The notes beneath the pieces were generated by a model that was not told where the DNA came from, searched no databases, and saw nothing but the letters and a program-made list of their open reading frames with translations. From the NCBI GenBank assembly GCA_028284445.1, contig JANQRS010000021.1, positions 1 through 64,000 on the forward strand: a stretch of 64,000 nucleotides of DNA, given 5' to 3'. The translations under genes were made by a program, and so were the position numbers. Source of the DNA: Calditrichia bacterium (GTDB lineage: Bacteria; Calditrichota; Calditrichia; RBG-13-44-9; J075). Positions 9,164-10,429 of the stretch are shown in pieces. How positions within the stretch are numbered: position 1 is the first letter of the stretch; each line of letters opens with the position of its first letter.

Positions 9164-9335
9164 GATATTGCCTTTCACAATTGAAAACATCCTGCCCTTC
9201 AATTTTTCTAAAGACATATCAAAGGCCATGCCGAAAGAGGTTTCACTAACCCAACAGATTGTTTATAAATGGCTTAGAAAATTCACACAAAAGCGAGATA
9301 CATTGCGAACTGCGTCTACTTTTTCAGACGCAGTA

Positions 9336-10343
9336 TTATTTTTTCGCTTCATAAATCTCGGTATTCGGAAATGTCAGGGAGAACCCATACCAACGTGTAA
9401 AAAGCTGCAGAGGTCGCTGCGGAATTCCAGGATCAGCATTTTCTTTTACGAGACGTCCAGCAGACAGCTGTTGACCATTGTCGAGGAGAATGGTCTCGCC
9501 ATCCATTGCCACCGTTTTGCTGTCGACAAAAATCGCTGCCGGGACATCTGATAGCGGATCGATATAAACCAGTAGTGTTCGCCCGTCAAGCCTGTCCAGC
9601 AAAGGGCCTTCATCGATTAAATCCAGCGGGTAGTAGCGACTGCCTTGATCATTCCAGATTCCCAGCCCCATTTCCATTTTTGGGCGACGCCCGTCGTGAT
9701 CCGCGATGGTGCCTTCAAACATATCGTTTAGCTTCTTACGCTTGCGCTTGCCCTTCTTTCGGCGCTTTTCCGCAGATTTATGCGTTGACATGGCAATTCG
9801 GGCTTCAGGATTCAAGGTTAGCAATTGCTCAACACTCATATGAAGCAGGTTGCCAACAGCCAGCTGTTTTCCCTTCATCGGGCCATGAAGCGCTTCGCCG
9901 GTAATATGATGCCAGAGTGATTCCGTTTCCAAATCGGCCATCAGAAACAAGCCATCATACAGAGCGCGTTCTTCAAACTTCAAGACTCTTCCATCAATCT
10001 CAGGCATCAAACTGACACCGCTATTGCAAACCACTCAGAAGGTCAGTAGCCAGGGCTCATTCTCGAGCGTTCCCTGGGCAACATGATGATAGGCCATATG
10101 CCGGGTTAAAATTGCCAGATGCTGATCGTTTTTTTCCAATACCAGGAGTTCTTCATCATTACCAACCTTGCCGGCGTCGACTAGTGCTTTCAACTCACTT
10201 GTTTCTTTGACGTAGAATGGATCAAAGTGGCGTTCCTCACCGATGATCGCGCGATCGATGTCAAATTCGGAGTTTTGAGCAAATACAGTCACGCTTAATA
10301 TTGTCAACACCAGTAATTGAATCATTACGCCAGTGAATTTCAT
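9336..10343 (-). CDS. DUF3179 protein with in-frame UGA: predicted selenoprotein (UxxC)
   Basis: Read through TGA at 10037-10035, the two open stretches (10343-10038 and 10034-9339) lie in one frame and give a 335-residue DUF3179 protein. It has a signal peptide (LLVLTILSVTVFAQ). The conserved block then reads LLTF-U-VVCNSGV...DGRVLKF, where family members normally have TYCPLCNSx...DGRVLTF, and it continues through DLETESLWHHITGEALHGPMKG. The UGA therefore stands exactly at the first Cys of the CxxC motif. A 6-bp stem with a 5-base AGUUU loop begins 15 bases after the UGA (see the SECIS entry), matching bacterial selenocysteine insertion signals. The second half alone would lack the signal peptide and the motif. 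DUF3179 function is unknown; a periplasmic redox role is inferred from UxxC. A basic KKGKRKRKK stretch near residues 195-200 is unusual. Confidence 0.85.
10003..10019 (-). promoter_or_regulatory. Predicted bacterial SECIS hairpin
   Basis: In the mRNA, GGUGUC pairs with GAUGCC (six pairs, two of them G-U) around the loop AGUUU. There is a G within the first two loop bases, and the loop lies 21 bases after the UGA. These three properties are the usual description of bacterial SECIS elements bound by SelB. The hairpin lies inside the coding frame, as expected in bacteria. Confidence 0.75.
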
Positions 10344-10429
10344 CGAGACTCCCGTTCTATTAAAGCATGAAGATTAAAAATTGAAGATGACGCCGCTGAA
10401 TCATGCAGTTTTCAATCTTCATTCTTCAT

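Follow-up and report, generated by a model that had tools for sequence, protein, structure and literature searches.

A DUF3179 gene with an in-frame UGA codon in a Calditrichia bacterium and its relatives among probable selenoproteins

DUF3179 (pfam11376) is listed as a prokaryotic selenoprotein family with the motif UxxC/T, and the two reviews that list it both credit its selenoproteins to Zhang and Gladyshev (2007), from the Olavius algarvensis Delta 1 symbiont (PMC9312934, PMC13188914). In a full-text search, no more than three papers turned up that name DUF3179. The gene described here lies in a 64-kb stretch of DNA (‘the window’, meaning the whole stretch that was analysed). It belongs to the same Pfam family as the listed DUF3179 selenoproteins and has its UGA in the same kind of motif, but it forms part of a deep, separate subfamily (UVVCNSG), with the listed proteins compared by description only. 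The doubt about novelty voiced in the initial annotation was well founded, as the family is already on record. What is new here is the large number of UGA-containing DUF3179 genes in the phylum, including single-repeat proteins that have no second Cys (UPLV/I/E); for the UxxV/I/E single-unit proteins and for the expansion in the phylum, no earlier description was found in the part of the literature covered. The window gene adds a well-supported Sec member to its subfamily, and that many members have lost the second Cys provides a lead, namely that DUF3179 function needs a single Sec/Cys and not a UxxC pair.

A reading frame across a UGA codon

A single TGA at 10037–10035 (codon 103) parts two open reading frames that lie in the same frame on the reverse strand, 10035–10343 and 9336–10034. 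Translated with the TGA as U, the joined frame encodes 335 amino acids with the junction LLTF-U-VVCNSG (Table 1). The Pfam profile PF11376 matches residues 56–279 of the joined protein, on both sides of the UGA, with 81 bits (cut-off 27) and is the sole family match that Pfam gives; NCBIfam holds no model matching the joined protein, and an Rfam search at the locus returned nothing useful. The initial annotation had proposed one gene split by a TGA at the first Cys of the DUF3179 CxxC motif, and both parts of this proposal agree with the frame, the profile match and the homologues, in which the UGA column is Cys or Sec in 26 of 26 aligned full-length DUF3179 proteins. Read-through length alone proves little, since the window contains 14 long TGA read-through frames. 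Standard gene calling halves the protein, and the key residue is thereby lost.

Table 1. Features of the DUF3179 locus in window coordinates.
Feature	Position	Strand	Basis or remark
DUF3179 gene, probable selenoprotein, 335 codons + stop	9336..10343	-	PF11376 81 bits, residues 56-279; frame; homologues
Signal-peptide-like N-terminus, residues 1-22 (MKFTGVMIQLLVLTILSVTVFA)	10278..10343	-	Translation; hydrophobic helix 3-22 in AlphaFold model
N-terminal repeat unit, about residues 61-191, holds Sec103	9771..10163	-	Homologous to C-terminal unit
His86 codon, invariant in full-length homologues	10086..10088	-	Alignment, model; replaced in 3/16 single-repeat proteins
UGA codon 103, very probably read as selenocysteine	10035..10037	-	Column Cys/TGA in 26/26 aligned full-length DUF3179; TGA in L029, L033, G186 orthologues
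Cys106 codon, second residue of UxxC pair, invariant in window subfamily only	10026..10028	-	
Predicted SECIS hairpin GGUGUC-AGUUU-GAUGCC, loop 10009-10013	10003..10019	-	Folds; six pairs kept in UGA orthologues; three broken in Cys orthologues
Asp137 codon, invariant	9933..9935	-	Full-length and single-repeat alignments
Trp144 codon, invariant	9912..9914	-	Full-length and single-repeat alignments
C-terminal repeat unit, about residues 215-334, without Sec/Cys	9342..9701	-	hhalign
9-bp hairpin just past stop codon (ACTGCGTCT ... AGACGCAGT), no clear T run; possible transcription end	9309..9334	-	Direct sequence inspection

The gene is flanked by a DUF72 gene on one side and an Omp85 gene on the other, and no redox gene adjoins it. 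Between the DUF72 gene and the DUF3179 start, positions 10360–10425 of the window are rich in A and T and contain an imperfect inverted repeat (AATGAAGATTGAAAA ... TTTTTAATCTTCATG), where the upstream transcript may end.

The Sec machinery named in the initial annotation is present throughout in the draft genome of the host (8.19 Mb, 83 contigs): it has a tRNA-Sec with a TCA anticodon, selA adjoining selB on contig C45, and selD (L044, G000:C63:27626-28549). The selD gene has its own in-frame TGA in the sequence CGUAAKI, at the usual Sec/Cys site of SelD, and selD is thus a second, well-understood selenoprotein gene of the host. The host and the genomes that carry a UGA orthologue of the window gene (G385, G386 and G186) all have a tRNA-Sec, whereas none was found in those with Cys orthologues (G387–G389). 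Across the phylum, it was detected in 10 of the 11 genomes with a UGA-containing DUF3179 gene, as against one of the seven whose DUF3179 genes all lack the UGA (one-sided Fisher p about 0.0025, calculated by hand and with relatedness ignored). The exception is G010, a draft of about 540 contigs, which has a UGA-containing DUF3179 gene (UPLCH; L091:6473-7534, G010:C256) but no detected tRNA-Sec; either the tRNA-Sec is missing from the assembly or the DUF3179 gene is newly stranded.

The hairpin and the orthologues of the window gene

Downstream of the UGA lies a hairpin with a 6-bp stem and an AGUUU loop that starts 21 nt after the UGA, the whole spanning positions 19–35 counted from the U of the UGA. 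This structure, described in the initial annotation as a SECIS hairpin, folds as proposed there and is conserved in two other UGA lineages, but the discriminating power ascribed to it was not upheld. The same stem is formed by 31% of synonymous recodings of the window gene, and of the 2464 TGAs that the window contains, 7.3% are followed by a SECIS-like stem, so that the hairpin alone is weak evidence. Judged on the window alone the SECIS assignment would be weak; it draws its strength from comparison. Every UGA copy (the window gene, L029/L033 and G186) forms all six stem pairs with unchanged spacing, and the pair at 21–33 from the UGA is U-G, G-U or U-A among them, a compensatory change at one pair; the Cys orthologues have lost three of the six. 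When the partner strand was slid along the three distinct UGA sequences, pairing dropped from 100% to 33–50%. The shuffle control was weak, with 155 of 500 shuffles as high, there being only three distinct UGA sequences of the subfamily.

The closest relatives in the genome collection come from two gammaproteobacterial MAGs (L029, L033), which are 41–42% identical and have a TGA at the same codon. They share with the window gene the AGUUU loop, its distance from the UGA and a signal-like N-terminus, but have a TlpA/redoxin-like gene 15 bp downstream that is absent beside the window gene. A further UGA orthologue was found in G186, from a different bacterial family. The UGA is retained in all three at about 41% identity or less, on both sides of the codon, and both halves of the frame are conserved among the orthologues. 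Three Cys orthologues (L030–L032), from Candidatus Haliotispira prima (a Spirochaete), a Saprospiraceae MAG and a Chitinophagales MAG (both Bacteroidota), belong to the same subfamily with about 35% identity to the window protein and CV/IICNSG at the same place; they differ in having Cys for Sec, no SECIS stem and no detected tRNA-Sec in the genome. Throughout the window subfamily, Cys106 of the UxxC is invariant.

In the tree, the window gene and the CNSG proteins form a separate DUF3179 subfamily on a long branch (support 100/100), and four or more switches between Sec and non-Sec are needed to account for the well-supported branches of the tree. The rest of the host's class yielded no close orthologue of the window gene, so that acquisition from outside, or loss in all the other members, is likely. 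The called ORFs of the Cys orthologues (L030:4959, L031:4959, L032:4959) have no N-terminal signal, unlike the window and gammaproteobacterial proteins, and the same is true of the called ORF of the G186 UGA orthologue (L096 near 1475); protein location may therefore differ within the subfamily.

It could be argued that the TGA marks a pseudogene or a sequencing error, a Cys codon having turned into TGA in a gene that is dead or misread. Cys orthologues do exist, TGT and TGC are one base away from TGA, and the assembly is a draft; this explanation is nonetheless highly improbable, given that the same TGA occurs in L029, L033 and G186 at such low identity, that the stem covaries, that both frame halves are conserved and that the Sec machinery is present. 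There is as little likelihood that the UGA is a real stop between two proteins, or is read through with some residue other than Sec. Each piece is an ORF by itself and long TGA read-through frames are found elsewhere in the window, but the UGA falls inside the DUF3179 domain, other members have Cys or Sec in this column, and UGA use tracks tRNA-Sec across genomes. That the UGA is decoded as Sec is very highly probable, and it is highly probable that the DUF3179 protein so made is functional. Sequence evidence supports the gene itself, the assignment of Sec to its UGA, the covarying SECIS and the Sec machinery of the host.

Architecture and possible function

Profile comparison found the N and C units of DUF3179 to be homologous (hhalign probability 98.6%, E 8.7e-16), and on this evidence the domain is an internal duplication in which the Sec/Cys is confined to the N unit. 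In a group of proteins of roughly 230 residues the N unit stands by itself behind an N-terminal extension, and nearly all of these proteins have a lipobox-like Cys. Five columns are invariant among the 26 full-length proteins, namely His86, Cys/Sec103, Asp137, Trp144 and Gly154. In the AlphaFold model (mean pLDDT 85.6), Sec103 ends a strand (96–103) whose hairpin partner (87–93) begins after His86, and from this register His86 and Sec103 should face each other. Neither the window protein nor a single-unit member had a significant match in a PDB fold search with Foldseek, and a PDB sequence search with a profile gave no match. No thioredoxin-type fold or family was found, PF11376 being the only Pfam match and no PDB fold match being significant.

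The initial annotation had also described a UxxC redox-type protein. The UxxC holds for the window subfamily but not as a family motif, as the second Cys varies across DUF3179 (UPLA, UPLV, UPLI, UPLE and CPLT all occur). This makes a universal dithiol switch across DUF3179 unlikely, and chemistry on the Sec/Cys alone would fit better.

In the mechanism that we propose, the hairpin just behind the UGA would direct SelB and tRNA-Sec to read this codon as selenocysteine. Sec103 would replace the near-universal Cys of the family in the first of the two repeat units, opposite His86 and with Asp137 and Trp144 conserved. On the most likely reading, the protein would be exported and would act as a periplasmic selenol-based oxidoreductase, with Sec as the reacting atom. 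In the window subfamily Cys106 could pair with Sec103 as a selenenylsulfide. The TlpA/redoxin-like gene downstream in L029 and L033 suggests a periplasmic thiol reductant for the subfamily, and a TlpA-like thioredoxin would be a plausible candidate. A redox function remains a tentative assignment, for which we put the chance at somewhat below even.

A different role for the selenoprotein is possible, albeit rather unlikely, in which Sec103 would serve as a metal ligand or a non-redox nucleophile together with His86 and Asp137. Such a role would suit the conserved set, which comprises Cys/Sec, Asp, Trp and mostly His, and the dispensability of the second Cys in the family; against it stand the invariance of Cys106 in the window subfamily and the redoxin neighbour in two relatives. 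Moreover, redox enzymes make up most of the bacterial selenoproteins that have Cys homologues. Kinship with Rieske proteins was also considered, in which DUF3179 would be a degenerate Rieske-like domain with its Sec/Cys box derived from a cluster-binding box. The CPLC box resembles CPxH, the His-x16-Cys spacing is similar, and the top probabilities among the non-significant Foldseek matches belonged to Rieske proteins (0.13–0.16). Profile comparison led to its rejection, with hhalign probabilities of 2.2% and 0.4% against 30 Rieske domains; with no significant fold match, and with the C-x-H / C-x-x-H ligand set absent, a Rieske origin is very improbable.

DUF3179 genes across the phylum

DUF3179 genes were found in 18 of 33 genomes of the phylum, many of them with one TGA. 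Outside the window subfamily there are 24 UGA-containing genes (23 distinct sequences). All of them have the TGA in the same column and, behind it, a hairpin of the type GRCUG-YCGUGUA-CAGYC that covaries strongly. In this alignment 94% of cells are paired and 17 cells are changed on both sides; none of 500 shuffles scored as high, and only 20–44% were paired when the strand was slid. These UPL-type genes, which include copies on host contigs C58 and C6, share with the window gene the UGA column and a hairpin at almost the same distance, but the hairpin has another sequence and register, the second Cys is often missing, and in one group the N unit stands alone. An apparent TGA in a match from G031 is a frame-edge artefact that lies outside the Sec column.

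The host itself has six DUF3179 genes. Four have a UGA, namely the window gene, a copy on C58 and a pair on C6; the other two are a Cys copy on C68 and a copy on C6 that has lost the Sec/Cys (YSGFF). On C6 three single-repeat, lipoprotein-like genes form a cluster (L077:8641-11547, G000:C6:314640-317546), two being UPLVNL with a UGA and one SGFF, which looks as if it were a non-catalytic paralogue.

Taken as a whole, DUF3179 may be an exported Sec/Cys family built on a duplicated beta unit with no detectable PDB relatives, which would work through a single Sec, together with Asp and in many cases His, and not through a CxxC switch. It would have expanded in this phylum to several selenoprotein paralogues per genome, single-unit lipoproteins included, with the window copy belonging to a separate subfamily that was probably acquired from outside the phylum. 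As a combined account this is speculative, and we would give it roughly one chance in three.

Gene neighbourhoods were compared over 21 loci, and beyond the TlpA gene in the two gammaproteobacterial MAGs and an APMAGITN gene by three single-repeat copies no conserved operon was found. The APMAGITN gene, presumably a dihydrouridine synthase, lies beside single-repeat DUF3179 in three genomes (L077:7173-8405, L083:5194-6420, L094:6932-8122), mostly in opposite orientation, and the adjacency probably reflects shared ancestry of place and not an operon.
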